DNA of 46,448 nucleotides from Actinomycetes bacterium. Lineage in GTDB: Bacteria > Actinomycetota > Acidimicrobiia > Acidimicrobiales > JAKAOS01. The notes under the pieces were generated by a model. The model saw only the letters and a program-made list of their open reading frames with translations. It had not been told where the DNA came from and made no database searches. The translations under genes were made by a program, and so were the position numbers. The stretch's first letter is position 1; every line of letters starts with the position of its first letter. Shown one piece after another: positions 30,325 through 46,448 of the stretch. The stretch spans positions 1 to 46,448 of the forward strand of contig JAJYPS010000005.1 in NCBI GenBank assembly GCA_021795215.1, in the 5' to 3' direction.

Positions 30325-30347
30325 TAGGCCCCAGGCGATCAACCGAG

Positions 30348-30381
30348 AGACGACCGGCGGCGTGGACGCCGCCGGTCGTCT
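30348..30381. terminator. Strong 15-bp hairpin between gvpZ and the oxidoreductase gene
   Basis: AGACGACCGGCGGCG (30348-30362) pairs perfectly with its complement at 30367-30381 over a TGGA loop, 24 nt after the gvpZ stop. As the next gene is convergent, it can serve both strands. Confidence 0.85.
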
Positions 30382-30436
30382 TGGCATCTAGTCCCTTGTG
30401 CTGGATGCGGTGTTCCCTGGCGAACCAAGGTTGCCG

Positions 30437-31420
30437 TCAGGCGTGCACGTCAACAACCACCCGGCCTCTGATCTGCCCGGCCAGCATCTGCTCCGCAAGA
30501 GCCGGAAGGCGGCTCATGGGCTCGATCCGTGTGATGTCGTCGAGGTTGTGGAGGGGAAGGGCGGACGCGATCAGCCCCCAGGCCTCGGCCCGAGCAGAGG
30601 AGGGACGCCTCACGGAGTCGATCCCGAGCAGAGAGACGTTGCGGAGGATGAACGGCAACATCGTCGCCGGAAGTCGTGTGCCGCCGGCAAGGCCGCATGC
30701 GGCCACTGCACCGCCGTACGCGATACGGGCGAGAAGGTTCGCCAGGGTCGGGCCGCCTACGGAATCGACCGCTCCGGCCCACCGTTCGGGGCCCAGAGCC
30801 GTCTGCTGTCCGCCGGCAAGCTCTTTCCGGTCGACGACTTCGGATGCGCCCAGCGCCGCCAAGTATTGGTATGAGTCGGCTTTGCCCGTCGACGCAGTGA
30901 CCGGATAGCCGCTGGCGGAGAGAAGAGCGACGGCGACGCTGCCCACTCCGCCCGTGGCTCCCGTGACCGCTACATCGGCCCCGCTCGACAATCCCGCCTT
31001 TTGCAGCGCCAGAACGCAGAGCGCCGCAGTCAGCCCGGCCGTACCCACCGCCATCGTCTGGCTCAGGCTCATGGACGACGGCTTTTCCATCAGCCATTCC
31101 GACCGGAGCCTCTGCACCGTCGTGTACCCGCCGGGGTGGGTCTCGGACAGTCCCCAGCCGGTGACCACCACCTCGTCGCCCGGGCACCACCGGGGGTGTT
31201 GGGATGCGGTGACGGTGCCGGCCAGGTCGATCCCGCAAACCATCGGATAACGGCGAGCGATCCTCGCCCGCCCCGTGACGGCCAGAGCGTCTTTGTAGTT
31301 GAGCGACGAGTACGACACGTCGACCGTCACGTCGCCTTCGGGCAGATCCCCCTCGGACAGATCGGCTACAACGGCCGGACGGTCGTGACCGGTGGTGACG
31401 ACAGCAGGGAAGTTGCCCAT
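30437..31420 (-). CDS. YhdH/AcuI-type quinone or acrylyl-CoA reductase
   Basis: A 327-aa medium-chain dehydrogenase/reductase. The domain order is typical: catalytic part with YSSLNYKDALAVTG and CGIDLAGTV, then the NADPH loop VTGATGGVGSVAVALLSASG and, further on, IDSVRR. The zinc-binding cysteines of alcohol dehydrogenases are absent, as in this branch. Characterised members reduce acrylyl-CoA (AcuI) or act on quinones (YhdH); which applies here cannot be told. ATG 31420 was chosen because it begins MGNFPAVV. It is divergent from the orphan kdpA gene, 252 bp apart. Confidence 0.85.
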   Translation of the reverse strand: MGNFPAVVTTGHDRPAVVADLSEGDLPEGDVTVDVSYSSLNYKDALAVTGRARIARRYPMVCGIDLAGTVTASQHPRWCPGDEVVVTGWGLSETHPGGYTTVQRLRSEWLMEKPSSMSLSQTMAVGTAGLTAALCVLALQKAGLSSGADVAVTGATGGVGSVAVALLSASGYPVTASTGKADSYQYLAALGASEVVDRKELAGGQQTALGPERWAGAVDSVGGPTLANLLARIAYGGAVAACGLAGGTRLPATMLPFILRNVSLLGIDSVRRPSSARAEAWGLIASALPLHNLDDITRIEPMSRLPALAEQMLAGQIRGRVVVDVHA

Positions 31421-31672
31421 GACCGGCCGGTATAGCAGTGTCTCGGCGGACCCGCAGCGGACGGACCGCTGGCGAAGGTGTGCGTACAACGGAAACCCGC
31501 CGGCGGTGCCCCGATTTGATACCGGATTTAGCTGCCGGCCACTCCCGTTAACACTCCATTGAGGCGCGCCTGACAATGATCTGGACGTGACCCCTTCCGT
31601 GCCTGCAAGACCGAATGCGCAGCCCGGGCTCGGCCGGTCGAACGTGCCGAGCAGTTGTGAGGAGGACCTTTC

Positions 31673-33361
31673 GTGTCGTTCGGCTTGACACTGGTTGCGC
31701 TGTTCCTGGCCCTCGCCGTCGCCTGGCGGTTTCTCGGCGCCTATATGGTGGCCGTGCTGGACGGTCGGGTCCACTGGCTGGCGTTCGTCGAGCGGCCGCT
31801 GTATCGCCTCCTGAAGGTCGACCCCGAGTCGGAACAGAGCTGGCAGCAGTACTCCGTGAGCCTTTTGCTGTTCTCGGGCGTATCGATCCTCGTCACTTAC
31901 GGGTTGCTCAGGCTGCAGGGGCTCCTTCCGTTCAACCCGCAGCGCTTGCCTGCAGTGAGCCCCGCGCTGGCGTGGAACACTTCAGTGGCTTTCGCCACGA
32001 ACACCGACTGGCAGAACTACGTGGGCGAGCAGACGATGTCGTACTTCTCGCAGATGGCCAACCTCGCGGTCCAGAACTTCTTCAGCCCTGCCGTGGCAAT
32101 TGCGGTGGCTGTCGCGCTGATCCGCGGCTTCGCCCGGAAGGGTTCGCCCACCATAGGGAACTTCTGGCTGGACATGATCCGCAGCATCCTGTACCTGTTG
32201 CTGCCGATCTCGTTCGTGATGGCCCTGGTCTTCGTCGGGGAAGGGGGGGTCCAGACGCTCGGCGGGCCGGCCCACGTGCACGACGTGCTCAGCGGAGCCG
32301 CTCAGACGATCCCTCGTGGTCCTGTCGCTTCCCAGGAGGCCATAAAGCAGTTGGGCACCAATGGCGGAGGCTTCTTCAACGCCAACAGCGCGCATCCGTT
32401 CGAGAACCCGACCGGGCTCACCAACTGGCTGACGCTAGTGCTCTTCCTGTCGATCCCGGTCGCACTGACGTATGTGTTCGGCAAGATGGTGGGCAGCCTA
32501 CGGCAAGGGGTGGCGGTGCTGGCTGCCATGGTTTTCTTCTTCGGTACTTGGACGGCGTTCACCACGGCAGCCGAGAAGGGGCCGAACCCCGCCGTGGCCG
32601 CGGCGGGTGTCCTCCAACCGCGGGGAAACACGGTCGGCAAGGAGGCTCGCTTCGGCGTCTCCTCGTCCGCTCTGTTCGGCGTTGCCGCTACGCAGACGTC
32701 GGACGGCTCGGCCAACTCCGCCTACGACTCCTTCACGCCAGTAGGGGGCCTGGGACTGATGACCGGCATGATGCTGGGGGAGGTCTCGCCCGGCGGCGTC
32801 GGCAGCGGCATATACACCATGCTGCTGTACGCGATAGTGGCGGTTTTCGTGGGCGGCCTCATGGTCGGGCGAACTCCGGAGTACCTGGGAAAGAAGATCG
32901 GTGCCAAGGAGGTGAAGCTGGCCGCGATTGCGATCCTCGTCGCCCCGATCACCGTGCTGGTGCTCTCCGGCATAGCCGTGTCGGTCCACGCCGGAAAGGT
33001 GGCACCGCTCAACTCTGGCCCGCACGGGTTCTCGGAGATCCTCTACGCGTTCACTTCCCAGGCGGAGACCAACGGGTCGGCGTTCGCCGGTCTGACGGGG
33101 AACACTCCCTTCTACAACATCACCGGGGGGATAGCGATACTCCTCGGCAGGTACGCCGTGATCGTCCCGGTACTGGCGCTGGCCGGCACGCTGGCGGCCA
33201 AGGGTATCGTGCCCGCCAGCGCCGGTACGGTCCGCACCGACACACCCATGTTCGTCGGACTGCTGATAGCCGTCGTGCTGATAGTCGGTGGCCTGACGTT
33301 CTTCCCGGCCGTGTCATTGGGGCCGGTGGTGGAGGCCCTCAGTCATGGCAAGTTGTACTGA
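31673..33361 (+). CDS. kdpA: KdpA paralog, orphan copy with altered pore-loop residues
   Basis: A full-length 562-aa homolog of the potassium-binding subunit of KdpFABC, about as long as the second copy and very similar to it. It retains [19 protein letters not shown] and [11 protein letters not shown]. It differs in the first loop (TNTDWQ, with Asp112 for the normal Asn) and the fourth loop (AETNGSAFAG, with Glu465-Thr466 for NN). No kdpF, kdpB or kdpC follows it; the next gene is on the other strand. GTG 31673 has GAGGAGGACC upstream. It could form a hybrid complex with KdpB/KdpC or act alone; neither is known. Confidence 0.93.
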   Translation: MSFGLTLVALFLALAVAWRFLGAYMVAVLDGRVHWLAFVERPLYRLLKVDPESEQSWQQYSVSLLLFSGVSILVTYGLLRLQGLLPFNPQRLPAVSPALAWNTSVAFATNTDWQNYVGEQTMSYFSQMANLAVQNFFSPAVAIAVAVALIRGFARKGSPTIGNFWLDMIRSILYLLLPISFVMALVFVGEGGVQTLGGPAHVHDVLSGAAQTIPRGPVASQEAIKQLGTNGGGFFNANSAHPFENPTGLTNWLTLVLFLSIPVALTYVFGKMVGSLRQGVAVLAAMVFFFGTWTAFTTAAEKGPNPAVAAAGVLQPRGNTVGKEARFGVSSSALFGVAATQTSDGSANSAYDSFTPVGGLGLMTGMMLGEVSPGGVGSGIYTMLLYAIVAVFVGGLMVGRTPEYLGKKIGAKEVKLAAIAILVAPITVLVLSGIAVSVHAGKVAPLNSGPHGFSEILYAFTSQAETNGSAFAGLTGNTPFYNITGGIAILLGRYAVIVPVLALAGTLAAKGIVPASAGTVRTDTPMFVGLLIAVVLIVGGLTFFPAVSLGPVVEALSHGKLY

Positions 33362-33461
33362 CGGACCGCAGCAGCCAGTGGGTCGGGTCGGGCTTCGGGC
33401 CGAGGCTCGCCACGGCTGCGAACCGCCTCCCGGTCCCGGCTCGGCCGTCCTCACCGTCGCC

Positions 33462-33785
33462 TCAGAGCTGCTCGAGAAGGGCCTCGTCCGCGCCCAGTTC
33501 GGTGAGCACCCGGACCAGGTCCGACTTTCTCATCAGCGTCTCGTAGTCGTCGTCTCTCCGCACCGTCGGCACGTTGCTGACTCCCAGCGAGTCGGCTCGT
33601 TCCCGGCCCTTCGCAGTGCCGAGGTTGCACATCTGCAGGGTTATCAGTCCGGCGTGCTCCAGCTTCCGCAGACCGTTGACCGCCTCCTGACAGCCGCTGC
33701 AGATCGGGTGGGTGAACAGCTCCACCACCCTCGGCTGGCAACCGCCGGTCGTCCCGCCCTCTTCGACCTGGCTCGTCTGCGTCAT
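33462..33785 (-). CDS. Thioredoxin-fold protein with CSGC motif
   Basis: A 107-aa protein. Residues ~18-80 have a glutaredoxin/thioredoxin-like fold with the dithiol Cys29-Ser-Gly-Cys32 (FTHPICSGCQEAV) and a cis-proline loop (VSNVPTV). An extra cysteine (Cys16) lies just before. It has the form of a small redox partner or a chaperone-like thiol protein. It is on the minus strand, directly downstream of the lipoyl carrier and thioredoxin genes, so the three genes run in the same direction. Confident on fold, not on partner. Confidence 0.75.
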   Translation of the reverse strand: MTQTSQVEEGGTTGGCQPRVVELFTHPICSGCQEAVNGLRKLEHAGLITLQMCNLGTAKGRERADSLGVSNVPTVRRDDDYETLMRKSDLVRVLTELGADEALLEQL

Positions 33786-33792
33786 GCCGCCA

Positions 33793-33828
33793 CCTTTCTG
33801 GCTCCCCGGACCTTTCTGGCTCCCCGGA
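33793..33828. repeat. Perfect 18-bp tandem duplication
   Basis: CCTTTCTGGCTCCCCGGA occurs twice without a gap, at 33793-33810 and 33811-33828. It lies just before the start of the CSGC protein gene and contains its candidate ribosome-binding region (AGAAAGG on the minus strand). Confidence 0.7.
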
Positions 33829-33882
33829 CCCTGGTGCTCCGGCCGGGGCCGTGTCCGGATCGCCGGCCAGACCCGCTCCTGC

Positions 33883-34449
33883 TCAAAGGTCGTCCCAGTC
33901 GTTGCAGTGGACGCACCAGAAGTCGTCGTTCACTCCCGCCACCGAGCGGAACGTGCGTCCGATCCGCTCCCGGTAGGCGTCCTGAGCCTCCTTGCCGGAC
34001 AGCCACGGGACGGCGGACTCCGGTCGGAACGCCACCACCCATCCTCGCCCGTACGGCTCCAGGTTCACCCAGAGGGGATGGGGTACCAGGTCGGCGTTCA
34101 CCTCGACCAGCTCGGCATCCACAGGCAGCCGGATCGGCCCCACCCACTTGGCGCTCTCCAGAAGAGCTACCGTCTTGCCTGCCGCCACCCGCTTTCCCAG
34201 CCTCTGCTCCGACCGGGGAAAGGAGATCGCCTGGAGCTTTCCCCCCGCTGTCTGCCCCACGTCCGTCAGGCCGACGCGCACCACTCCCGACTCCTCCACC
34301 CTCGCCCACAAGTCGTGCTCCACGTCGTACATCAGGTTCGTCGGCAGCACGCAGTTCTTGAACACCCAGGGTTGGTCGGCCGGGGACCCGGAGGAGTCCG
34401 GCCGACCGTTCGTTTCCTCGCCCCCCTCGTTTGCCGCTGGTTCGCCCAC
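33883..34449 (-). CDS. GcvH-like lipoyl-carrier protein, non-glycine-cleavage type
   Basis: About 188 aa. Residues ~28-145 follow the GcvH fold (YDVEHDLWARVEESGVVRVG, LTDVGQTAGGKLQAISFP). The lipoylation lysine is kept in LLESAKWVGPIRLPVDAELV, but the surrounding residues differ from true GcvH. The C-terminus adds ~45 residues ending FWCVHCNDWDDL, with a CVHC pair. It resembles the lipoate-binding proteins of the sulfur-oxidising sHdr systems only in general form; no hdr genes are nearby. GTG 34449 has GGGAGG at about 5 nt. It lies between two thioredoxin-fold genes. Confidence 0.75.
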   Translation of the reverse strand: MGEPAANEGGEETNGRPDSSGSPADQPWVFKNCVLPTNLMYDVEHDLWARVEESGVVRVGLTDVGQTAGGKLQAISFPRSEQRLGKRVAAGKTVALLESAKWVGPIRLPVDAELVEVNADLVPHPLWVNLEPYGRGWVVAFRPESAVPWLSGKEAQDAYRERIGRTFRSVAGVNDDFWCVHCNDWDDL

Positions 34450-34532
34450 GCCAACCTCCCAATATCCGCTGCTCCGTAGAGTAACCGCGGCGGGTCGTCC
34501 CGGCGTGGTTCTCCTTCGTGTGGCCCAATCGG

Positions 34533-34964
34533 TCAAGAGCCCAGCTTCGACTGGACCCACCTCGCCAGGGTCGCTTCGGGCAGAGCACCGACTTGACGAT
34601 CCGTCACTCTGCCGCCGTCCAGCAGCAGCAGGGTCGGTATCCCCTGGACTCCGAAGCGAGCGCTCAGGGCGGGGGCCTGGTCCACGTTCACCTTGACCAC
34701 CTTCAACCTGCCGGCGAACTGGCCGGCCATCTTCTGTACCGCCGGCGACAGGACGCGGCAGGGCCCGCACCATGGTGCCCAGAGGTCGACCAGCACCGGC
34801 ACGGGTGACTTCGCCGTGATCTCGTCGAAGTCGGCCTCGGTCGCGTCGACGGACCACGGGAGCCATGCCTGGCATCGCCCGCACCGGGGCTTGCCGCCCG
34901 CGGTGGTGGGCACACGGTTGCGTCCCCCGCACTCCTGACACGTCAGTACCGAAAAGGAGCCCAC
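34533..34964 (-). CDS. Thioredoxin-2-type protein with zinc ribbon
   Basis: A 143-aa thioredoxin. The N-terminal ~35 residues have two CxxC pairs (CQECGG, CGRCQAW) as in TrxC-type thioredoxin 2. The thioredoxin domain has WAPWCGPCRVL, and the cis-proline is in GIPTLLLL. It reduces disulfides in cytoplasmic proteins; the zinc ribbon is thought to tune redox sensing. GTG 34964 begins VGSFSVLTCQEC. It is the first gene of a three-gene minus-strand group followed by the lipoyl carrier and CSGC protein. Confidence 0.9.
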   Translation of the reverse strand: MGSFSVLTCQECGGRNRVPTTAGGKPRCGRCQAWLPWSVDATEADFDEITAKSPVPVLVDLWAPWCGPCRVLSPAVQKMAGQFAGRLKVVKVNVDQAPALSARFGVQGIPTLLLLDGGRVTDRQVGALPEATLARWVQSKLGS

Positions 34965-35015
34965 CGAACCTTCTTACCCCCTTCGTCCACTTCCCGGCAC
35001 CCGGTACGCCGGATC

Positions 35016-35033
35016 TGTTGACGATTTGTTGAC
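35016..35033 (+). promoter_or_regulatory. Candidate response-regulator box upstream of kdpF
   Basis: TGTTGAC occurs at 35016-35022 and 35027-35033, starts 11 bp apart (about one helical turn). Head-to-tail repeats at this spacing are typical of OmpR-family sites, and KdpE is of that family. It lies 56 nt before the first small gene of the kdp operon. A TTGACG or TTGACC in it could also be a -35 box, but no fitting -10 is seen. Confidence 0.4.
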
Positions 35034-35088
35034 CCCTTGGCGCCCCGCGTCGATGCCCTGTTTAGCAGGCGCCCGGCACGCTGGAGTC

Positions 35089-35172
35089 ATGCCTGATCTG
35101 CTCTCGGTAGTTGGGACAGTGGTGTTCATCGTGGCGATGCTCGGCATGAGCCGCGGAATGGAGAAGCTGTGA
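35089..35172 (+). CDS. 27-aa membrane peptide before kdpF
   Basis: A tiny gene, MPDLLSVVGTVVFIVAMLGM then SRGMEKL. It is one transmembrane helix followed by a short charged end. It overlaps the KdpF start by 4 nt (GTGA). Its EKL ending also matches that of KdpF (RPEKL), so it may be a KdpF-like paralog or an accessory peptide. GGAG lies only 2 nt before the ATG, so translation strength is unclear. Confidence 0.5.
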   Translation: MPDLLSVVGTVVFIVAMLGMSRGMEKL

Positions 35173-35258
35173 CAATCAACGACGTCGTCCTGCTGGCCCT
35201 CTCGGTCGCCATGATGGGCTATCTGGGCTTCGCCCTCATACGGCCGGAGAAGCTGTAG
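35169..35258 (+). CDS. kdpF: KdpF small stabilising subunit
   Basis: A 29-aa peptide (VTINDVVLLALSVAMMGYLG, ending FALIRPEKL). The single helix and the PEK(L/F) end are typical of KdpF, which stabilises the KdpABC complex in the membrane. The GTG at 35169 overlaps the 27-aa peptide's stop; its TAG overlaps the kdpA2 GTG by one base. Too short for most gene finders. Confidence 0.85.
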   Translation: MTINDVVLLALSVAMMGYLGFALIRPEKL

Positions 35259-36946
35259 TGGCCTACGCGCTCACCATCGTGGCCCTCGTCGTGGCGCTCG
35301 GCTTGACGTGGCGCTTCCTCGGGGCCTACATGGTCGCCGTTCTCGAAGGTCGTATGCGCTGGCTGGGCTTCATCGAGAAGCCCCTCTACCGGCTGCTCGG
35401 CATCGAGCCCGACGCGGAGCAGAGCTGGCAGCGGTACTCCATAAGCCTGCTGGTCTTCTCGGGGGTCTCCATCCTGGTGACCTACGCGATCATGCGCCTG
35501 CAGCAGTTCCTTCCGCTGAACCCCCAGCACATGGGGGCCGTCACGCCGGCATTGGCCTGGAACACCGCCGTGTCGTTCGTGACCAACACCAACTGGCAGA
35601 ACTACCTGGGCGAGCAGACCATGTCCTACTTCACCCAGATGAACGCTCTTGTCGTCCAGATGTTCATCAGTCCCGCAGTAGGTATCGCCGTGGCGGTGGC
35701 CCTCATCCGCGGGTTCGCGCGCAAGGGCTCGCCCACCATCGGAAACTTCTGGCTGGACCTCATCCGTAGCACGCTGTACGTCCTGCTGCCCATCTCGTTC
35801 GTCTTCGCGCTGATATTCGTCGGCCAGGGTGCGCTGCAGACCTTGGGCGGACCGGTCCACGTCCACAATGCCCTCAACGGCACGACTCAGACCATCCCCC
35901 GGGGGCCGGTGGCGTCCCAGGAGGCGATCAAGCAGTTCGGCACCAACGGAGGCGGCTTCTTCAACGCCAACAGCGCCCACCCCTTCGAGAGCCCCACCGG
36001 GCTGACCAACTTCCTGTCGATCTTCCTTTTGCTCTCGATCCCCGTGACACTGACCTATGTGTTCGGCAAGATGGTGGGCAGCGTGCGCCAGGGAGTGGCG
36101 GTGCTCGCGGCGATGATCTTCTTCTTCGGCGTCTGGACGACGTACACCACCGTCGCCGAGAAGGGGCCGAACCCCGCGGTGGCGGCGGCAGGCGTCGCCC
36201 AGCCTCGCGGGAACACAGTCGGAAAGGAAGCGCGTTTCGGCGTGTCCTCGTCAGCACTATTTGGAGTGTCGGCAACCCAGACCTCCACCGGGGCAGCAAA
36301 CTCTGCTTACGACTCCTACACCCCGGTAGGGGGGATGGGACTGCTGACCGGCATGATGCTCGGTGAGGTATCGCCGGGCGGCGTGGGCAGCGGCATGTAC
36401 ACCATCCTGCTGTTCGCTATCGTGACCGTTTTCATCGGCGGACTGATGGTCGGACGAACGCCCGAGTATCTGGGAAAGAAGATTCAGGCCAGGGAGGTGA
36501 AGCTGGCCGGGATCGGCGTGCTGGTGATGCCGGTCACCGTCCTGGTGCTGTCGGGGATAGCGGTATCGGTTCACGCCGGCCAGGCGGGGCCGCTCAATGC
36601 CGGGCCACACGGGTTCTCCGAGATCCTCTACGCGTACACATCTATGAGCAACAACAACGGCTCGGCGTTTGCGGGATTGACCGGCGACACGCCCTTCTAC
36701 AACATCACCGGCGGAATAGCGATGCTGCTCGGCCGGTTCGCCATCATGGTCCCGGTCCTGGCACTCGCCGGCACGCTGGCAGCCAAAGGCGTCGTCCCCG
36801 CCACGGCCGGTACGGTCCGCACCGACACGCCTCTGTTCGTAGGCCTCCTGATCGGCGTCGTGCTGATCGTCGGCGGCCTCACATTCTTCCCGGCCGTATC
36901 CCTCGGACCGGTCGTGGAAGCCCTTACTCACGGGAGGTTGTACTGA
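35258..36946 (+). CDS. kdpA: KdpA potassium-binding subunit (operon copy)
   Basis: A 562-aa integral membrane subunit with about ten helices and four pore loops. All loop motifs are canonical: TNTNWQNY (Asn112), LGTNGGGF-type ([21 protein letters not shown]), [11 protein letters not shown] and [10 protein letters not shown]. It starts with GTG overlapping the kdpF stop and ends overlapping kdpB by one base (TGATG). This is the likely functional copy of the KdpFABC complex for high-affinity K+ uptake. The orphan paralog lies 3.6 kb upstream. Confidence 0.96.
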
Positions 36947-38976
36947 TGGCCCAGGCACGCGGAGTCGCGACCAGCCGCAGCCTGTTCGACCCGGCCATAC
37001 TGAGCCGGGCCAGCGTGGACGCGTTCAAGAAGCTGGACCCGCGGGTGCAGTTCCGAAACCCGGTCATGTTCGTGGTCCTCGTGGGCACCGTCGTCACGTT
37101 CGCCGAGTCGATCCGGCGCCCCAGCTTCTTCAGTTGGGCGATAACCGTATGGCTGCTGCTCACGGTGCTGTTCGCCAACCTCGCCGAGGCTATGGCGGAA
37201 GGCAGAGGCAAGGCCCAGGCCGACACTCTGCGCAAGATGCGGACCGAGACGGACGCCCGCAGGCTGACCCCGGACGGCAGCGAGTTACGGGTTCCCGCCT
37301 CGGATCTGAGCCAGGGCGACACGGTCGTCTGCGAGAGCGGCGACGTGATCCCCTCCGACGGGGAGATAATCGAGGGCGTCGCGTCGGTCGACGAGTCGGC
37401 TATCACCGGGGAGTCGGCGCCGGTGATCCGGGAGTCCGGAGGCGACCGCTCGGCCGTCACCGGAGGCACCAAGGTGCTGTCCGACCGCATCGTGGTCAAG
37501 ATCACCGCGGAGCGGGGCAAGACCTTCATGGACCGCATGATCAACCTGGTGGAAGGTGCGAGCCGACAGAAGACTCCCAACGAGATCGCTCTGGACATCC
37601 TGCTCGCCGCCCTGACCATCGTCTTCCTGCCGGTGGTGGTGGTCCTGGACCCGTACTCGCTGTTCGCGCACGGCACGGTCAACGTGATCATCCTCGTCGG
37701 GCTGCTGGTCTGCCTTATTCCGACCACCATCGGAGCACTGCTGTCCGCTATCGGGATCGCCGGCATGGACCGCTTGGTGCAGAGGAACGTGCTGGCCATG
37801 AGCGGCCGGTCGGTGGAGGCGGCGGGCGACGTCAGCACGCTGCTGCTGGACAAGACGGGCACGATAACTCTCGGCAACAGGATGGCTTCGGCCTTCCTGC
37901 CCGTGGGCGGCCACGACGAGAAGGAGCTGGCCGACGCGGCACAGCTCGCGTCCCTGGCCGACGAGACCCCCGAAGGGCGCTCGATCGTGGTGCTGGCCAA
38001 GGAGCGGTTCGACCTGCGGGGACGGGAGGTGGGGGGCGACCACTCCTTCGTGCCGTTCTCCGCCCAGACCCGGATGTCGGGTCTCGACATGGGCTCGCGC
38101 CACCTCCGCAAGGGCGCCGCGGAAGCGGTCAAGCGCTGGTCGGTGGAGCAGGGAGGCTCCGCACCTGCCGAGCTGGACTCGGTCGTGGAGCGTGTCGCCA
38201 AGGCCGGTTCGACTCCGCTCGTCGTAGCCGACGGCCCCACCATCCTCGGCGTCGTCGAGCTGAGGGACATGGTCAAGGAGGGCATCCGGGAGCGCTTCGA
38301 CCAGCTCCGCACGATGGGCATCCGGACTGTCATGATCACCGGTGACAACCCTCTGACCGCGGCGGCCATCGCCGAGGAGGCCGGCGTCGCCGACTACCTG
38401 GCCGAGGCAACTCCGGAGAACAAGCTTGAGCTGATCCGCAAGGAGCAGGCCGGAGGCCACCTGGTGGCCATGACGGGGGACGGCACCAACGACGCTCCCG
38501 CTCTGGCCCAGGCCGATGTGGGTGTGGCCATGAACACCGGCACCAACGCGGCGAAGGAAGCAGGGAACATGGTGGACTTGGACTCCAATCCGACCAAGCT
38601 GATCGACATCGTCGAGATCGGCAAGCAGCTGCTGATCACCAGGGGCGCGCTGACGACGTTCTCGATAGCGAACGACGTAGCCAAGTACTTCGCCATCATC
38701 CCCGCACTGTTCGCTGCGACTTATCCGCAGCTGGGGGCCCTCAACATCATGGGGCTCCACAGTCCGACCTCCGCGGTGCTGTCGGCGGTCATCTTCAACG
38801 CTCTCATCATCGTGGCGCTCATACCGCTGGCCCTCCGTGGCGTCCAGTTCAGGCCGGCCTCGGCAACCTCGATACTGCGTCGGAACGTCGCCATCTACGG
38901 CGTGGGCGGGATAATCCTGCCGTTCATAGGCATAAAGCTGATCGACTTGATCCTTACCGCAACGGGGCTCTACTGA
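36946..38976 (+). CDS. kdpB: KdpB P-type ATPase subunit
   Basis: A 676-aa ATPase that hydrolyses ATP to move K+ bound by KdpA. The phosphorylated aspartate is Asp302 in [13 protein letters not shown]. The actuator loop (ITGESAPV), the hinge ([16 protein letters not shown]) and nucleotide-binding residues are present. Full length. It overlaps kdpA and kdpC by one base each, so translation is coupled. Confidence 0.97.
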
Positions 38977-39506
38977 TGCTTATACAACTACGTCGCTCGC
39001 TGGTCGTGGTCGTCTTCTCGATCCTTCTGCTGGGCCTGGCCTACCCTCTGGCCACTACCGGCGTGGCCCAACTGATCTTTCCCCACCAGGCAAACGGCTC
39101 GCTGGGTCCGAACGGGTCGGCTCTGATCGGCCAGAAGTGGACCGGGACCAAGTGGTTCCACGGCCGCCCGGGCTCCTACAACGCCATGGCCAGCGGTGCT
39201 TCCAACCTGGGACCGCTCTCCAAGACCCTGGAGGCGCACGTGGCCAAGCGGGTCGCCGCCTGGCACAAGGTCGGCGTAACGCCCACGGCAGAGCTGGTCA
39301 CCAGCTCTGCCAGCGGTCTCGATCCGGACATCAGCCCTGCGTCAGCGTACGCGCAGATACCGATGGTGGCCAAGGCTCGGCACCTCTCGCCGTCCGTCCT
39401 GCACCACCTCATATCGTCTCAGGTCCACGGCCGCCAGTTCGGGTTCCTGGGGGCTCCTTACGTGAACGTGCTCTCGCTCAACGAGGCACTGGCTCACCTC
39501 CACTGA
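38976..39506 (+). CDS. kdpC: KdpC subunit
   Basis: A 176-aa subunit with one N-terminal helix (SLVVVVFSILLLGLAYPLAT) and a soluble domain outside. Conserved parts include FHGRPGSYNAMASGASNLGP and SGLDPDISPASAYAQIP, as in the family. KdpC acts as a catalytic chaperone for ATP binding in KdpB. It ends the operon, and a hairpin follows before the convergent LCP gene. Confidence 0.95.
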   Translation: MLIQLRRSLVVVVFSILLLGLAYPLATTGVAQLIFPHQANGSLGPNGSALIGQKWTGTKWFHGRPGSYNAMASGASNLGPLSKTLEAHVAKRVAAWHKVGVTPTAELVTSSASGLDPDISPASAYAQIPMVAKARHLSPSVLHHLISSQVHGRQFGFLGAPYVNVLSLNEALAHLH

Positions 39507-39569
39507 TCCACCGCCTTGGCCTCCCGCAGGCTTGGCCTCCGTGGCGGTTGCGATCGCCACGGGCAGGTG

Positions 39570-39609
39570 CCGGCCGCTGGCAAGTCCCCCTCCCCGCGCC
39601 AGCGGCCGG
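39570..39609. terminator. Terminator-like hairpin between kdpC and the LCP gene
   Basis: CCGGCCGCTGG (39570-39580) pairs with CCAGCGGCCGG (39599-39609): an 11-bp stem with an 18-nt loop. It lies between the convergent ends of kdpC and the LCP gene and can serve both. No T-run is present. Confidence 0.65.
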
Positions 39610-39645
39610 TGGCGGTGCCGAGAGCTTCGTGGCGGTGCCGAGAGC
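39609..39645 (+). repeat. Two 17-bp direct repeats (20-bp period)
   Basis: GTGGCGGTGCCGAGAGC occurs at 39609-39625 and 39629-39645, just after the hairpin. It has no evident function. Confidence 0.55.
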
Positions 39646-39726
39646 CGAGTGCTGGTGTCCCTGGTCGAGCGGGCGGACCGGCGTTTCTCGTCCGGAGCGG
39701 CGATGCCGACCCGACGAGTGTCGCGG

Positions 39727-40848
39727 TCAGCAGGCGAACGGGTCGAAGCTGGGCGCCTTGGTGTTGCCCACGATCGACCCGGCGTTTGCCGGAACCTGGT
39801 GCGGGGTCGCCACGGCAGTCGAAGGACTGGCTGGAGCGGAAGGCTTCGCCGCCCCTGGTCGGGGAGCCGACTGGCCGACCGACTGCAGGAACTGAGAGAT
39901 CACTCTCCCGTCCTGACTGGGCACGGGGAACAGTACGTCCCCGTATGAGCCGTAGTTGTTGACAATTTGAGTAGGCAGAGTGAATCCGACCATGTGACCG
40001 GAGGCCACCTTCCGCAGCTGCGAGGCCAGGTGCGCCAAGCTGGTCAAGCTCAACTTGTTGTCGACCGTCAGGTTCTTTGCAGCTACCGCGAGCAGGTTGT
40101 TGAGCGCGATCGGGTTCGTGAGGACCGTCGAGCGCACTCTTGCCACCGCTGCCTGTAAGAAAGCATGTTGGCGATGGATACGTCCGAAGTCGGCCGTACC
40201 GTCGAAGTGCCAGCTGCCGTTCTTGTAGTAGGAAAAGTATCGGCTCCTTGCCAGCGCCAGCGCTTGTTTGCCGTTCAGGAGTTGACAACCTGCAGTAGGA
40301 ACGTTGAGGCCCGACATCGTGTCCCGAGACGGATAGGGGAAGTCCACTTTCACCCCCCCAATGGCGTTGACGATGTTGATCAGCCCGCCGAAGTTGACCT
40401 CTACGTAGTCGCTTATCGGTATGTGAAGGTCTTGCTGTACCGTAGCGACGAGTTGATTGGGTCCGGCATTGAGTGCGTTGCCGATACGATTCGAATGAGA
40501 AGCCCCCGCAATGGGAGCGAAGTAGTCGTAAGGAATAGACAGAAGAGCTGCTTTCCCAGTTACGGGGTCGATTCGGACTATGACCATCGTATCGGCGCGT
40601 TTTCCGCCTACTTGCGAAGCGGAGCCGTAGCTGGACTGTTGCTGCGGAGTCAAGCCGCTGCGCGAATCGGACCCGACGAGTAGGACGTTGAACGGCTTAC
40701 GCGGGGAGAGAGCGCCGCGGGCTGCCGGCAGCGGAACTTTCGATATCTGACTGTACCGGTAACGAACGTAGGCGTAGGCACCTCCTGCGATCAGCAGAAG
40801 TACGAGAAGTAGCGAAGACAGCCATATGGCGATTCGCCTCAAGATCAA
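39727..40848 (-). CDS. LytR-CpsA-Psr (LCP) family cell-wall ligase
   Basis: A 373-aa membrane-anchored protein. Residues ~7-28 are a transmembrane anchor (LSSLLLVLLLIAGGAYAYVR). The extracytoplasmic LCP domain has LLVGSDSRSG, ADTMVIVRIDP, NRIGNALNAGPNQLV and GKQALALARSRYF, with the conserved Arg and Asp residues. Family members attach teichoic acids, arabinogalactan or capsule to peptidoglycan. The C-terminal ~50 residues are Pro/Ala-rich and disordered. The TTG start has GGGAGGA 5 nt upstream. It is divergent from the small phosphatase gene. Confidence 0.9.
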   Translation of the reverse strand: MILRRIAIWLSSLLLVLLLIAGGAYAYVRYRYSQISKVPLPAARGALSPRKPFNVLLVGSDSRSGLTPQQQSSYGSASQVGGKRADTMVIVRIDPVTGKAALLSIPYDYFAPIAGASHSNRIGNALNAGPNQLVATVQQDLHIPISDYVEVNFGGLINIVNAIGGVKVDFPYPSRDTMSGLNVPTAGCQLLNGKQALALARSRYFSYYKNGSWHFDGTADFGRIHRQHAFLQAAVARVRSTVLTNPIALNNLLAVAAKNLTVDNKLSLTSLAHLASQLRKVASGHMVGFTLPTQIVNNYGSYGDVLFPVPSQDGRVISQFLQSVGQSAPRPGAAKPSAPASPSTAVATPHQVPANAGSIVGNTKAPSFDPFAC

Positions 40849-41120
40849 CTAGTTCCTCCCTGGAGTGACGCGTTGCGGAAGGGAGCAGAGTCGACGTCGT
40901 CCGGCGGGTGCAGGGCACAAAGTGGGAAAGATGTCCGCAGGGGTCACCCCGAGAAGTTATCAGGCATCCAGAACCTGGTGGGAGCGCACGACTTTCGCCT
41001 CTGGTCCGCGGTGCTGGACAGTGTTCTCCCGTCCCCGTTCCCCGTTCCCCTCCAGTGGACGGATCTCACCCACCTGGGCGTCGGTCACGTCGCTCCTCGC
41101 CGCTGGGCCATCATGGCGGG

Positions 41121-41570
41121 ATGGGTGCGGAGCCTTGGCCGTGGCCTTCCAAGGGAGTGCTGCAGCTTCCGTCCGGCCGCCTCGTGCGAGGCCGTGGGCT
41201 GCGGAGGAGCGACGGCCCCCGGCCGTCACCCGAGTTCGGGCTGTACCTACTGGGGCGAACGCCGCCGGAGATGGGATGGGAGGCACGCTGGGTCCGTTGG
41301 CCGGACTGGTGGCTTCCCCTGGACCGACGGGACGCTCGGGAGGCGCTTGTCGACGCCTGGGAGCGGGCGGCGAGCCAGCGCGTGGAGATCGCCTGTGGAG
41401 GAGGAAGCGGCCGCACCGGGACTGCGCTGGCTTGTCTCGCCGTGCTGGACGGCCTGCCGCCACGTCGGGCCGTGGCCTTCGTACGCCGTCACTACAGGGC
41501 CGGGGCAGTCGAGATGCCTTGGCAGAGCCGGTATGTACGGAACTTTGGCGAGAGCCCGCTCGCCCCGTAG
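41121..41570 (+). CDS. Small protein-tyrosine/dual-specificity phosphatase
   Basis: About 149 aa. The phosphatase loop Cys-x5-Arg is visible in EIACGGGSGRTGTALACLAV. The N-terminal PSGRLVRGRGLRR and C-terminal PWQSRYVRNF are features of a small actinobacterial protein-phosphatase family. The general acid could not be placed with certainty. ATG 41121 was chosen because the conserved VLQLPSGRLVRGRG follows; upstream sequence has no similarity. It lies between an LCP gene and kdpE, on the other strand to both. Confidence 0.72.
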   Translation: MGAEPWPWPSKGVLQLPSGRLVRGRGLRRSDGPRPSPEFGLYLLGRTPPEMGWEARWVRWPDWWLPLDRRDAREALVDAWERAASQRVEIACGGGSGRTGTALACLAVLDGLPPRRAVAFVRRHYRAGAVEMPWQSRYVRNFGESPLAP

Positions 41571-41661
41571 GTGTCGCGGGCGTCGTTCGCCTCGTGGGCC
41601 CCGCTCGTCCCGTAGGCCCCGTGTGCCTGGCGCCTGCAGCGGAGCTGCCCGGCGCTCGGAC

Positions 41662-42354
41662 TCAGCCGTCCCCCTCCTCGACCAGCTGGTAGCCGACGCC
41701 CGGGTTCGTCCGAAGGAGCCGGCCCTCGTCGTCCCCCAGCTTCTTTCGCAACCTGTTGGCGTACACCCTCAGGTAGTGCACCTCGTGTCCGTACCCCGCT
41801 CCCCAGACGCTCTCCAGGATCAGGCGGTGCGTGCAGACTTTGCCCGCGTTGGCCGCCAGGAAGCCCAGCAGGTCGAACTCCCTCGCGGTCAGCTCCACCG
41901 GCTGCCCGTTCCGGCTCACCTGGCGGCTGGGAAAGTCGATCCGGATCGTTCCCAGCTCTATCACCGACGGTTGCTCCTCTGTGCGCGACGCCTTGCGATG
42001 GCGAAGCGCAACCCTGATCCTCGCTTCCAGCTCCGCCATCCCGAAAGGCTTGGTGACGTAGTCGTCGGCCCCGCCGTCCAGTGCCGCGACCTTGCGGTCC
42101 TCGGCACCGAGCGCCGACAAGACGATCACCGGGATGTCCGTCCACTGGCGGATCCGGCGGCACACCTCCAACCCGTCCATGTCCGGAAGGCCCAGGTCCA
42201 ACAGGACCACGTCGGGTGCGTTCAGTGCAGCCTCCGACAGGGCATCGTGGCCGTTGCGGGCCGTCGACACGTCGTAGCCGCGGGCGGACAGCCCGATGCG
42301 CAGCGCTCTGATGAGCGAGTGGTCGTCGTCGACCACCAGCAGTTTGGCCGTCAC
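41662..42354 (-). CDS. kdpE: KdpE response regulator
   Basis: A 230-aa OmpR-family regulator. The receiver has VVDDDHSLIRAL, the phosphoacceptor Asp in VVLLDLGLPDMDG, and the Lys in YVTKPF. The C-terminal winged helix (LTAREFDLLGFLAANAGKVC, LRVYANRLRKKLGDD, GVGYQLV) binds promoter DNA. KdpE activates the kdp operon at low K+. ATG 42354 overlaps the sensor-kinase stop by 4 nt. Confidence 0.93.
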   Translation of the reverse strand: MTAKLLVVDDDHSLIRALRIGLSARGYDVSTARNGHDALSEAALNAPDVVLLDLGLPDMDGLEVCRRIRQWTDIPVIVLSALGAEDRKVAALDGGADDYVTKPFGMAELEARIRVALRHRKASRTEEQPSVIELGTIRIDFPSRQVSRNGQPVELTAREFDLLGFLAANAGKVCTHRLILESVWGAGYGHEVHYLRVYANRLRKKLGDDEGRLLRTNPGVGYQLVEEGDG

Positions 42355-43892
42355 GTCATCTCCGGGTTGCCGTAGGCGAGGGGCAGGTCGAACACGAACC
42401 GGGCGCCGCGAGGGCGCCCATCCTCCACCCGCAGCCGGCCGCCGTGTGCCTCCACGAACGCCTTCGCTATCGCCAGCCCCAGACCGGCCCTGCCACCTCC
42501 GTCACGGCTGTCGAACATCTGGAGGATCCGCTGGCGATCAACCGCCGACACCCCCGGTCCCTCGTCGGTGACGGCCACCTCCAGCTGATCGCCCCGTACC
42601 TGCGCGTCCACTTCGATGGACGTGCCCGGCGGCGCGTGACGGGAAGCGTTGTCGAGCAGGTTGGCCAGGACTTGCGCCACGAGAACATGGTCGACGTCCA
42701 CTAGAGGAAGCGACCCGGGGCGCGGCCGCCGCACCGCCTCGTTCCGCACCGCACTGCCCAGCGAGCTCAGTGCTTCGGCGACGAGATCGTCGATAGATAT
42801 GGGTTGACGACGAGGTTTCAGCACACCCGCGTCGATTCGAGACATGTCGAGCAGGTTGGTGACCAACCTGCTCAGGTGGTCGGTCTGAGCCTCGATCATC
42901 TCCAGAAGCTCGTCCTGTTGAGCGGCCGGAAGGTCGACGGACGGGTCCCGCAGATCGGACACGGCCGCTTTCACCGACGACAACGGAGTGCGGAGGTCGT
43001 GCGACACGCTCCCCACCAGGGCGTTGCGCCAGCGGTCGACCTCCTCCAGCAGTTCGGCGCGCATCGCCTGCTCCCTGAGCTGCGTCCGTTCGATCGCCAT
43101 CGCGACGTGGTTCGCGAAAGCTCCCAGCAGCTCCTGGTCCGCCTCGGACTCCAGTGCGCCTTTCACCACCAGTAGACCGACCGGCCCCCCCCTTGCCGCT
43201 CTCAGAGCGAAGCTCCGCAGGACCGTGCCGGATGCCGGGTCATCCACCCGCAATGCCGCCAGCGCTCCTGCCGCCGGCAGAACTGCAGCCAGATCTGCCT
43301 CTTGCAGTGGTGGGCCTGCCGACGCCACCACCTCCAGACCGCCGTCGCCCGGCATCACGACAGCAGCGGTCGTGGCGGACCCGAAAGCGTCCAGCACGGA
43401 GTCGGCCACAAGCTGGCAGAGGTCTGCCAGCCGCCGCTCCTCGATCAGCATGTCGGATAGGCGGAACAGCCGCCGCGCATCGGATTCTCGCCGCTGCGCC
43501 GCCCGGCGCGCATGCTGCATCGACGACACCACTTTGGCCAGCACAATCATCACGGTCGTATAGATCGCCAACGCCACCCAGTCCAGCGGGCGGTTGACCG
43601 TCAGCGAGTAATAGGGCGGCACGAACAGAAGGTCGTAGGCCAAGAAGCCTGCCACAACGGCAACGAATCCGGCCGCCAGGCCTGCCGTCACCACACCCAC
43701 CAGTACCGGGATCACCAGTACCAGCCCCGCCGTCGCCGGCGTCACGTCGGGACGGACCGCCAGCATGACGATGCTCAGAAGGGCGACGGTTCCGAGCGTC
43801 GCCCCTGTACCTGCGATGCGTCTGCCGAGGGGCACCAAGGCCTCTTTCACCCGATCCTCTGCCGACGTCCATCGTGGAGCGGGCAGAATCAT
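42351..43892 (-). CDS. kdpD: KdpD C-terminal half: membrane sensor histidine kinase
   Basis: A 513-aa protein equal to the second half of a normal KdpD. It has the four-helix DUF4118 region (residues ~30-130, TLGTVALLSIVMLAVRP, DYTTVMIVLAKVV-like), a GAF region, the HisKA box with His298 (SVSHDLRTPLSSVK) and an ATPase domain (ANLLDNASRHAPPG, DEGPGVS, GLGLAIAKAFVEAHGG). It has no N-terminal KdpD/Usp part; that is a separate divergent gene. The ATG at 43892 has AGAGGG 8 nt upstream, which lies in the other gene's coding DNA. Partner of KdpE by overlap. Confidence 0.93.
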   Translation of the reverse strand: MILPAPRWTSAEDRVKEALVPLGRRIAGTGATLGTVALLSIVMLAVRPDVTPATAGLVLVIPVLVGVVTAGLAAGFVAVVAGFLAYDLLFVPPYYSLTVNRPLDWVALAIYTTVMIVLAKVVSSMQHARRAAQRRESDARRLFRLSDMLIEERRLADLCQLVADSVLDAFGSATTAAVVMPGDGGLEVVASAGPPLQEADLAAVLPAAGALAALRVDDPASGTVLRSFALRAARGGPVGLLVVKGALESEADQELLGAFANHVAMAIERTQLREQAMRAELLEEVDRWRNALVGSVSHDLRTPLSSVKAAVSDLRDPSVDLPAAQQDELLEMIEAQTDHLSRLVTNLLDMSRIDAGVLKPRRQPISIDDLVAEALSSLGSAVRNEAVRRPRPGSLPLVDVDHVLVAQVLANLLDNASRHAPPGTSIEVDAQVRGDQLEVAVTDEGPGVSAVDRQRILQMFDSRDGGGRAGLGLAIAKAFVEAHGGRLRVEDGRPRGARFVFDLPLAYGNPEMT

Positions 43893-43895
43893 TGT

Positions 43896-45032
43896 ATGGA
43901 CCCTCTAGCGGTGTCTGACGAAGCCGAGTCCACTGTCGCGCCGGCCGGCCGATTCCGCCTGTATCTGGGAGCCGCCGCAGGCGTGGGAAAGACCTGCGCG
44001 ATGCTGGACGAGGGACAGAGGCGTCGGCAGAGGGGTACCGACATCGTCGCCGCCTTCGTCGAGACTCACGGCCGGCCGCGCACACAGGAGCTCGCCGCCG
44101 GGTTGGAGGTCGTGCCGCGCAAGGTGGTGGAGTACCGCGGAAGCACCTTCGAGGAGATGGACCTCGAAGCAGTGCTGGCCCGCAAGCCCGAAGTCGCCCT
44201 GGTGGACGAGCTCGCCCACACCAACGTGCCTGGTTCCGGTCCTCACGAAAAGCGGTGGCAGGATGTCATGACGCTGCTCGAGGCCGGGATAAGCGTCGTG
44301 TCGACGGTCAACATCCAGCACCTGGAGAGCCTTGCCGACGCCGTCGAGCGGATCACCGGTGTGGCGGTCAGGGAGCGGGTGCCCGACTGGGTCGTGCGGG
44401 AAGCCGACCAACTGGAGCTGATCGACTCCTCGCCCGAGCAACTCCGCCGACGGATGGTCCACGGCAACATCTATCCCCGCGAGAAGGTGCCCGAGGCCCT
44501 GTCCCACTTCTTCCGTCCCGAGAACCTGACGGCACTGCGGGAGCTGGCGTTGCGGTTCGTCGCAGACGAGACCGAGGACGAGCTTCTCGAGTACCTGGCT
44601 CAACTACAGCCGAAGGAGGTGTGGGAGACCACCGAGCGGTTCATGGCCGCAGTGTCGGACGCCGAGTGGACGGAGGGGGTTCTGAGAAGGGCTGCCCGGA
44701 TGGCGGCCAGATCCAAGGCGGACCTGCTGGCGGTGCACGTCCGGGCGAGTGACTCGATGCGCCAGCCGGACGAGAAGGCGCTGGCCCACCTCCGGTCGCT
44801 GGCGGCCGACCTGGGCGCTCGCTGGTTCGAGGTGAAGGCCGACGAGTCGACTCAGGCGCTGGTCAATTTCGCCCGGTCGCATCAGGTCACCCAGATCGTG
44901 CTGGGGTCCAGCCGCAGGAGCCGCTGGGAGGAGCTGACCAGGGGCTCGATCGTCACACGCCTGCTGCGGGCAGCGGCCGAGTCCGGCCTCGACGTGCACA
45001 TCATCGCCCGCCGGGAGCGGGAGATGGAGTGA
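43896..45032 (+). CDS. KdpD N-terminal half: ATP-binding KdpD and Usp domains
   Basis: A 378-aa soluble protein equal to the first part of a normal KdpD. The KdpD domain has a Walker A motif (YLGAAAGVGKTCAMLDEG), VDELAHTNVPGS and STVNIQHLESLADAVERITG. The C-terminal ~120 residues are a universal-stress domain (KADLLAVHVRASD, VTQIVLGSSRRSRWEELTRG, SIVTRLLRAA). No membrane or kinase domain follows. The start ATG 43896 lies only 3 bp from the divergent histidine kinase start. GTG 43911 is an alternative. Standalone KdpD-N proteins are known in cyanobacteria. Confidence 0.9.
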   Translation: MDPLAVSDEAESTVAPAGRFRLYLGAAAGVGKTCAMLDEGQRRRQRGTDIVAAFVETHGRPRTQELAAGLEVVPRKVVEYRGSTFEEMDLEAVLARKPEVALVDELAHTNVPGSGPHEKRWQDVMTLLEAGISVVSTVNIQHLESLADAVERITGVAVRERVPDWVVREADQLELIDSSPEQLRRRMVHGNIYPREKVPEALSHFFRPENLTALRELALRFVADETEDELLEYLAQLQPKEVWETTERFMAAVSDAEWTEGVLRRAARMAARSKADLLAVHVRASDSMRQPDEKALAHLRSLAADLGARWFEVKADESTQALVNFARSHQVTQIVLGSSRRSRWEELTRGSIVTRLLRAAAESGLDVHIIARREREME

Positions 45033-45593
45033 GACCGGCAAATTGCGACTTCAGTCAAGCCTGTTTGTCTCTTCGGACGCTTCGCAATGCAGCGTGATCG
45101 GTCGTTCTGTAGAGAGCCAAGGCGGGAGGTGTGTTCCTTGCCACTCTGCCGGCACACAAGCGAAACCGAGGACAGCCCGGCAAGCCCTGGAAGCGACATC
45201 GGCAATCGACGATTATCAAAGTAGGGCCTATCGATCACATTGGCCGAACGCGGAGACCCACATCCTCGCTACGCACGACCATAGCGAGCACACCTGAGCC
45301 TAGTGCCGCCCGACGACATTCGTCGGGCGGCACATACTTCCAATTCAGACCGCATTAGCGTACCATCAGGCTCTTCAGGACTCTACCCGCGGCACTTCAC
45401 ATGTCCTCCAGCCGCCGAGATCGCTTCACCGGCACGAGAATTGGTGCAGGCCGCAAACCATACCGGATAGAAAGCGGGCTGACAATGTACCTACTCGATG
45501 CCAAAGCAACATACATTCTGGACAACCTTGACTGAACACGGCCCGCCGGGGAAGACAATCCCGACAGGAAGCTCCGCCGTACCATCACCCTTC
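45033..45593. other. Non-coding stretch of AT-richer DNA
   Basis: No gene I can support lies here. Base composition falls from the high-GC norm and the open frames present are short and of no recognisable family. The only clear structure is the hairpin at 45303-45333. The short plus frame 45043-45297 ends just before that hairpin, but has no ribosome-binding site and no similarity I know. Confidence 0.45.
45303..45333. terminator. Perfect 14-bp hairpin with 3-nt loop
   Basis: GTGCCGCCCGACGA (45303-45316) and TCGTCGGGCGGCAC (45320-45333) pair fully over a CAT loop. The stem is very stable. It lies about 270 nt after kdpD-N, so it may end that transcript; it is also the only symmetric element near the composition shift. 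Confidence 0.6.
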
Positions 45594-46448
45594 TCAACTG
45601 GCCGAACCGCACAGTACCGGCTGAAAGTAGATCGTCGGGGAACCGTTGGCCACGATCTGCTTACTGCTACCAAAGTGGACGTTCACATACCATCCCGTCT
45701 TCGGCAAGGGACTTGTCACATTATGAAAGACTGTCTTCGATACTCCCGACCCGGTGCTCCCGACCACAATATCCTTCAGGTCATACTTAATAGAACCTTG
45801 CGATGCACAGCTCCCCAAGTGTACATGCGCCGCATGACTGGTATTAGGCGGCAATCCAGTTGCACGCACAGTAACAGACAGCATCTTAGCAGAGCGACTA
45901 TATGTTACTTTAGCAGAACCAGAGGGATGGAGTCCGCTCTGAGGTGGAGCGGAGACAGTCAGCATATCCGACGCTGTCGAAGAACCAGCCAGAATATTGG
46001 CACAGCCGAGCGGTGTAAAACCCAATGCACTACTTATCTGGGAACTATTCCCAAGATGTATATTAAAGTAACTATGTGCGGTCGGTATACCAGCTGGGCT
46101 AGGCACCGCTGCAGTCACAGACTCATTGATAGCGCCAACTGCGTTAGCAGTCACATCAGGAAAGTCGACGGCGACGGGACCCTGGCTACTGCACGAGCCC
46201 TGATGAATATGGAGCGCATGAGAGCTACCAGGAGTGAAGTCGCTCATGGCAACGTGGGCAGTGATCTTGTGTGTCGAGCTACTCCAGGAGAGGTTTACAG
46301 TGCCTGTTGGTGCATGACTGAGCGGAACCGTTACCGTCGAAGAGGTCCCTGAGGGAGTAGAGCTACCGGAACCATTAGAAGGGGGCCGAGTAGGGCCACA
46401 AGCCGCTAGCGAGGCCCGCGGTCCAAGCGCTGCAACGCGCGTCAAGCC
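45594..46448 (-). CDS. Predicted lipoprotein with two CHRD-like repeats (partial at the right edge)
   Basis: At least 284 residues, with the N-terminus probably outside the window. A lipobox-like LAACG lies near the visible start, followed by a Ser/Thr/Gly linker. Two similar domains follow: HALHIHQGSCSSQGPVAVDF with SYFNIHLGNSSQI, and HAAHVHLGSCASQGSIKYDL with WYVNVHFGSSKQI. The His-x-His and Gly-Ser-Cys pattern is that of CHRD/superoxide-dismutase-like extracytoplasmic domains. Each carries a pair of cysteines. The gene has many A/T-ending codons (TTA, AGA, ATA) and lower GC than its neighbours, a sign of recent transfer. Confidence 0.72.
   Translation of the reverse strand, partial: GLTRVAALGPRASLAACGPTRPPSNGSGSSTPSGTSSTVTVPLSHAPTGTVNLSWSSSTHKITAHVAMSDFTPGSSHALHIHQGSCSSQGPVAVDFPDVTANAVGAINESVTAAVPSPAGIPTAHSYFNIHLGNSSQISSALGFTPLGCANILAGSSTASDMLTVSAPPQSGLHPSGSAKVTYSRSAKMLSVTVRATGLPPNTSHAAHVHLGSCASQGSIKYDLKDIVVGSTGSGVSKTVFHNVTSPLPKTGWYVNVHFGSSKQIVANGSPTIYFQPVLCGSAS

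Follow-up and report, generated by a model that had tools for sequence, protein, structure and literature searches.

A KdpD sensor split into two head-to-head genes in Acidimicrobiales, with predicted back-to-back promoters

Introduction

KdpD combines a serine kinase and a histidine kinase in tandem, and in some species the two activities reside on separate chains. The commonest published split comprises a KdpD/Usp chain and a chain with the transmembrane (TM), GAF and DHp/CA parts, and in Escherichia coli KdpD, K+ sensing has been assigned to sites within TM/GAF (PMC11018627, Nat Commun 2024). For the Usp domains of KdpD, an (A/G/C)xSxSx2N(Y/F) motif has been described in c-di-AMP binding (PMC8214093). 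Two further lines of work bear on closely spaced divergent genes: bidirectional promoters are defined by start points 7-25 bp apart (PMC10268837), and in leaderless actinobacterial genes, the start codon follows a -10-like hexamer that lies about 12 nt upstream (PMC3160421).

Here we describe a kdp locus on a 46,448-nucleotide stretch of an Acidimicrobiales genome (the window: assembly GCA_021795215.1, contig JAJYPS010000005.1), where the two parts of kdpD are divergent genes. A split KdpD is already published (PMC11018627), and the conservation of the head-to-head layout, of which we found no description in the literature searched, is the new information.

Results

Two genes that together cover KdpD

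In the window, KdpD is split into two separate genes, and this arrangement is real, intact and conserved. Both open reading frames are intact (Table 1) and, together with their Pfam domains, they bear out the preliminary description of this DNA, which held that kdpD is divided into two intact divergent genes. The kinase aligns to positions 399-883 of full-length KdpD (PRK10490), so that the kinase gene and kdpN, as we label the gene for the stand-alone KdpD/Usp protein, together cover KdpD; the kinase gene also shares 4 bp (42351-42354) with kdpE. A profile search of the genome, a 92.7%-complete assembly of 2.6 Mb in 152 contigs, returned one PF02702 and one DUF4118 match, both within the window, and the remaining histidine kinases match mainly to the kinase end. 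Neither a second KdpD-domain or DUF4118 gene nor a full-length kdpD elsewhere, the finding to which the preliminary description had pointed as speaking against a split, was found in this 92.7%-complete genome. No riboswitch or other Rfam RNA reached the gathering score in 30000-46448.

Table 1. Features of the kdp locus in the window
Feature	Coordinates	Strand	Domains or basis
kdpF-kdpA-kdpB-kdpC pump operon	35170..39506	+	
Candidate KdpE box TTGAC-N6-TTGAC, upstream of kdpF	35018..35033	+	Repeat recurrence in relatives
LytR-CpsA-Psr gene	between kdpC and kdpE	-	
kdpE response regulator	41662..42354	-	Response_reg and Trans_reg_C; NCBIfam best match KdpE
Membrane histidine kinase half	42351..43892	-	DUF4118, weak GAF, HisKA, HATPase_c; longest ORF 513 aa
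Likelier kinase start codon GTG, codon 20 of the longest ORF	43833..43835	-	Orthologue N-termini
Predicted kdpN -10, CAGAAT	43884..43889	+	Spacing conserved in relatives
Predicted -10 of the kinase-kdpE operon, TACAAT	43891..43896	-	TAnnnT enrichment
kdpN (label of the present analysis), stand-alone KdpD + Usp protein	43896..45032	+	378 aa

KdpN matches the Pfam KdpD domain PF02702 (E 2.4e-93) and Usp (E 1e-8) and, aligned with E. coli KdpD, conserves the Walker A GKT (31-33), Walker B D104/E105, and R186 (E. coli R190); Walker A, E110 and R190 are retained in 88 of 89 split relatives. The adenine-stacking W39 of E. coli KdpD is C34 in KdpN, at a position that is also variable among full-length KdpDs. 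By these features, KdpN is a putative atypical serine kinase half. Its score against NF038185 (KdpD_non_kinase), 382.9 bits, is below the NCBI cut-off of 550. The c-di-AMP motif is absent from KdpN, which has AVSDAEWTE, and is matched by none of the 108 sequences tested (89 split and 19 full-length). The genome itself encodes a diadenylate cyclase (PF02457, G000:C98:11261-11596).

In the kinase half, DUF4118 (E 4e-16), HisKA and HATPase_c were recovered as expected, but the GAF domain that had also been assigned to it scores far under the Pfam cut-offs (GAF_2 E 0.008, 16.8 vs 28.6 bits; GAF_3 E 0.035). The phospho-acceptor H298 aligns with H673 of E. coli KdpD, D53 of KdpE aligns with E. coli D52, and KdpB retains E156-S157, equivalent to E161-S162 of E. 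coli, the target pair of the serine kinase. Conservation of the catalytic residues of both kinases and of both substrates, as judged by alignment, supports the view that the two halves are functional.

Recurrence and descent of the layout

Related loci were collected from whole genomes of the order and from named genome contigs, mostly of Acidimicrobiales. The kinase gene and kdpN stand head-to-head in 56 loci including the window, or 50 after the removal of near-copies, nearly all from Acidimicrobiales; this is the recurrence that the preliminary description had suggested looking for, and it shows that the arrangement is not due to chance. From the first conserved residue of the kinase to that of KdpN, the estimated distance spans 83-404 bp, and the window, with 130 bp, ranks 11th of the 56. 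In an even draw of genomes of the order, 13 of the 29 best-matching loci besides the window (L140-L168) are head-to-head. Roughly half of the split relatives have kdpN elsewhere, often after kdpC, so the head-to-head layout is not required; other layouts place kdpN beside kdpA or, in two cases (L108, L155), in a colinear kdpN-kinase pair.

A single KdpN clade (support 98) unites 90 split proteins to the exclusion of full-length KdpD; outside it lie three more divergent short KdpDs from the order. The stand-alone kinases, 61 in number, all separate from the kinases of full-length KdpD (97/83). Because the stand-alone KdpD/Usp proteins of the order form one clade, the head-to-head layout is, on the phylogenetic evidence, an inherited arrangement of Acidimicrobiales. 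In the KdpN tree, the window groups with mostly relocated relatives (support 83), and in the kinase tree, it pairs with a family member, L044, that is not head-to-head (97/90). With its tree neighbors mostly in other layouts, the window may have either retained an old layout or regained it. The simplest reading of the trees and layouts would be that KdpD was split once, that the genes came to stand head-to-head early, and that several relocations followed. In L043, L048, L083, L084 and L118, a KdpD-like frame of 741-816 residues lies beside kdpE, with a stand-alone KdpN a few kb away.

Start codons and predicted promoters

Upstream of kdpN, the window reads CAGAAT-CATTGT-ATG, with the -10-like CAGAAT ending exactly 6 nt before ATG 43896. 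In 18 of the 50 divergent loci, 6 or 7 nt separate the end of a -10-like hexamer from the KdpN start, against 0-6 loci at other spacings, and the typical sequence in the relatives is CACAAT or GAGAAT, N6, ATG/GTG. Since the first base of CAGAAT lies 12 nt before ATG 43896, the spacing agrees, at the level of sequence, with that of leaderless genes, which supports this ATG as the KdpN start. The kdpN transcript is accordingly predicted to be leaderless, starting at 43896, with no need for a ribosome-binding site.

On the opposite strand, the N-termini of orthologous kinases lie about 4-5 residues ahead of a conserved RR, a position that corresponds to GTG 43835 in the window. Residues 1-19 of the longest kinase ORF have no counterpart in the orthologues, and the GC3 of these first 19 codons is 0.63 vs 0.80 for the remaining ones. 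The orthologue N-termini and the low GC3 together indicate GTG 43835 or GTG 43850 as the kinase start, so that ATG 43892 is probably not the true one; AAAGAGG precedes GTG 43835 by 5 nt, and Shine-Dalgarno energies, nearly equal across the candidates, do not discriminate between them. The gap between the kdpN and kinase starts is then probably about 60 bp (GTG 43835) or 42-45 bp (GTG 43850). The preliminary description had placed the two start codons 3 bp apart: TGT alone does lie between the ATGs, and the kdpN start stands, but this spacing holds only for the longest kinase ORF.

Minus-strand TAnnnT motifs are enriched in the interval, with 41 occurrences in 36 of the 50 loci, compared with a mean of 14.5 and a maximum of 25 in 200 shuffles and with 9 and 7 in flanking coding controls. 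The one in the window, TACAAT (43896-43891), covers the start base of kdpN and the kinase ATG, and from it the start point of kinase-kdpE is predicted at about 43884, downstream of ATG 43892. The predicted picture is one of two back-to-back promoters with start points at 43896 (plus) and about 43884 (minus), some 12 bp apart, a predicted distance that falls within the 7-25 bp of bidirectional promoters (PMC10268837). The earlier expectation that the ribosome-binding site and promoter of each gene lie inside its neighbor agrees with the kinase -10, which overlaps the kdpN start codon, but not with kdpN, which is apparently leaderless and would need no such site. No -35-like match was found near either -10, and a consensus sigma-70 scan found no site with both hexamers. 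Among the relatives, the distance between the two -10s varies, reaching about 90 bp. In L051 (near 9155) and L125 (near 4493), the -10s in TACGATCCTACCGATG, TACGAT on the plus strand and TAGGAT on the minus strand, overlap nearly fully, and this is the tightest bidirectional promoter in the set.

A candidate KdpE box at the pump operon

About 240 bp ahead of kdpA (35018) is a TTGAC-N6-TTGAC direct repeat whose period is 11 bp, the sole exact match in the window; with at most one mismatch, the box occurs in 31 of 48 kdpA upstream regions. OmpR-family regulators habitually bind direct repeats, and by analogy with that habit we regard the repeat as a candidate KdpE site. The box is absent from the kdpN-kinase region of the window and occurs in 2 of the 50 divergent regions in what is a loose test. 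Its absence there suggests that kdpN and the kinase gene are outside KdpE feedback, and the coupling of the two halves that had been envisaged is thus not supported so far as it would act via KdpE.

Several other features of this part of the window deserve mention. A second kdpA at 31673-33361 (+), 80% identical to the operonic copy, has no adjoining kdpB or kdpC, and kdpC is single in the genome; upstream of the second kdpA, at 31548-31574, are three degenerate 11-bp-spaced repeats that resemble the candidate box. A 27-codon ORF at 35090-35173 (+), MPDLLSVVGTVVFIVAMLGMSRGMEKL, directly upstream of and overlapping kdpF, likewise ends in EKL and is possibly a second KdpF-like small membrane subunit. 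The C-terminal half of an ORF at 28981-30324 (+) is an extremely acidic low-complexity tail.

Discussion

The split, the retained residues, the conserved layout and the -10-like motifs at conserved spacings are the observations from which we propose that KdpD was split once in this lineage to yield two functional, co-expressed proteins, a serine kinase that inhibits KdpB and a histidine kinase that drives KdpE. At high K+, the soluble KdpN would phosphorylate KdpB at the serine of the TGES motif (S157) and shut off the pump; at low K+, the membrane histidine kinase would phosphorylate KdpE, and KdpE-P would turn on kdpFABC via the TTGAC-N6-TTGAC box. For K+ sensing, the kinase half would work as in E. 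coli (PMC11018627). The back-to-back promoters would transcribe kdpN, leaderless, from 43896 and kinase-kdpE from about 43884, such that the two halves would be produced in roughly matched basal amounts without dependence on KdpE. In this model, the activities, the start points and the co-expression are read from sequence. The published split and serine-kinase biochemistry (PMC11018627) agree with it; C34 in place of W39, the missing c-di-AMP motif, the lack of -35-like matches, the uncertain kinase start and the frequent placement of kdpN elsewhere count against it. We consider the model as a whole rather probable. Its extension, in which one compact bidirectional promoter with an order-wide layout sets matched basal amounts of a pump-inhibiting serine kinase and an inducing kinase-regulator pair, free of KdpE feedback, is offered tentatively, as possible but on the whole unlikely; if it were true, the on-switch and the off-switch of one pump would be balanced at the DNA level.

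The two chains might, on the other hand, re-assemble into one sensor, with KdpN docking on the kinase and setting its kinase/phosphatase balance, which is compatible with the two-job model and does not exclude it. The two halves of E. coli KdpD contact each other (PMC2714519), and there is an analogy with the N-terminal domain of that protein, which contacts the C-terminal part and stabilizes KdpE-P on DNA; kdpN and the kinase gene adjoin in many genomes, but relatives often have kdpN away from the kinase pair. By partial distance correlation, KdpN is tied to KdpB at 0.33 and to the kinase at 0.17, in a test that is weak and confounded by shared ancestry. The preliminary description had seen in the locus a K+ sensor made of two components. 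The two chains are upheld by the conserved residues, the lack of another KdpD and the published split (PMC11018627), but their union in one assembly remains a conjecture; in this weak test, the ties of KdpN to KdpB are at least as strong as those to the kinase. We rate re-assembly as doubtful.

Mutually exclusive transcription, another suggestion of the preliminary description, would let the cell choose one half through polymerase competition or an excludon-like antisense switch. With predicted -10s that abut and start points about 12 bp apart, two polymerases cannot sit together; yet the predicted kdpN and kinase transcripts do not overlap, the -10 spacing in relatives is far from fixed, and E. 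coli bidirectional promoters fire too rarely at the basal level for such competition (PMC12825309), which makes an exclusive switch improbable. As for a decayed or mis-assembled kdpD, with one gene broken by inversion or assembly error, the window does come from a fragmented assembly of 152 contigs, but the layout recurs in dozens of other assemblies, including that of Aciditerrimonas ferrireducens MV1 (L076), both ORFs are intact with catalytic residues, and the split has a single-clade origin. Recurrence and intact catalytic residues rule out error or decay, and the residual probability is practically negligible.

Under the two-job model, the locus is of interest in several respects. The serine and histidine kinase activities, both recently found in a single E. 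coli protein, would naturally be on separate genes and so could be deleted one by one, and this separation makes the identity of the K+ sensor and the mutual dependence of the halves directly testable. The locus would also be a conserved natural case of two genes of one pathway served by nearly overlapping promoters, one of them predicted to be leaderless.

Comparison with known systems

Among described systems, the published split KdpD (PMC11018627) comes closest. The locus shares with it the division of domains, the presence of kdpE, the Walker A and B motifs and the KdpB target serine; a separate chain with the TM domain, DHp/CA and phospho-acceptor histidine; and a genome (92.7% complete) that has a pump with the target serine and lacks a full-length KdpD. 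It differs in that its two genes diverge head-to-head from a short promoter region common to both, whereas the text of that paper, so far as it was available, gives neither gene order nor promoters. KdpN resembles the Deinococcus DgKdpD and the NF038185 short KdpDs in consisting of KdpD and Usp domains only, in about 375 aa, but unlike these, it is accompanied by a separate kinase and kdpE, and the c-di-AMP motif is missing. The single-chain KdpD of E. coli and actinobacteria has the same domains and the same KdpE partner; here, however, there are two polypeptides, and the full-length copies of the order form a separate branch. Finally, the predicted promoters are akin to known bidirectional promoters (Warman et al. 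2021; PMC10268837, PMC12825309) in having predicted -10s on both strands and start points that, by prediction, are about 12 bp apart, but differ from these in that both directions would yield mRNAs of one pathway.
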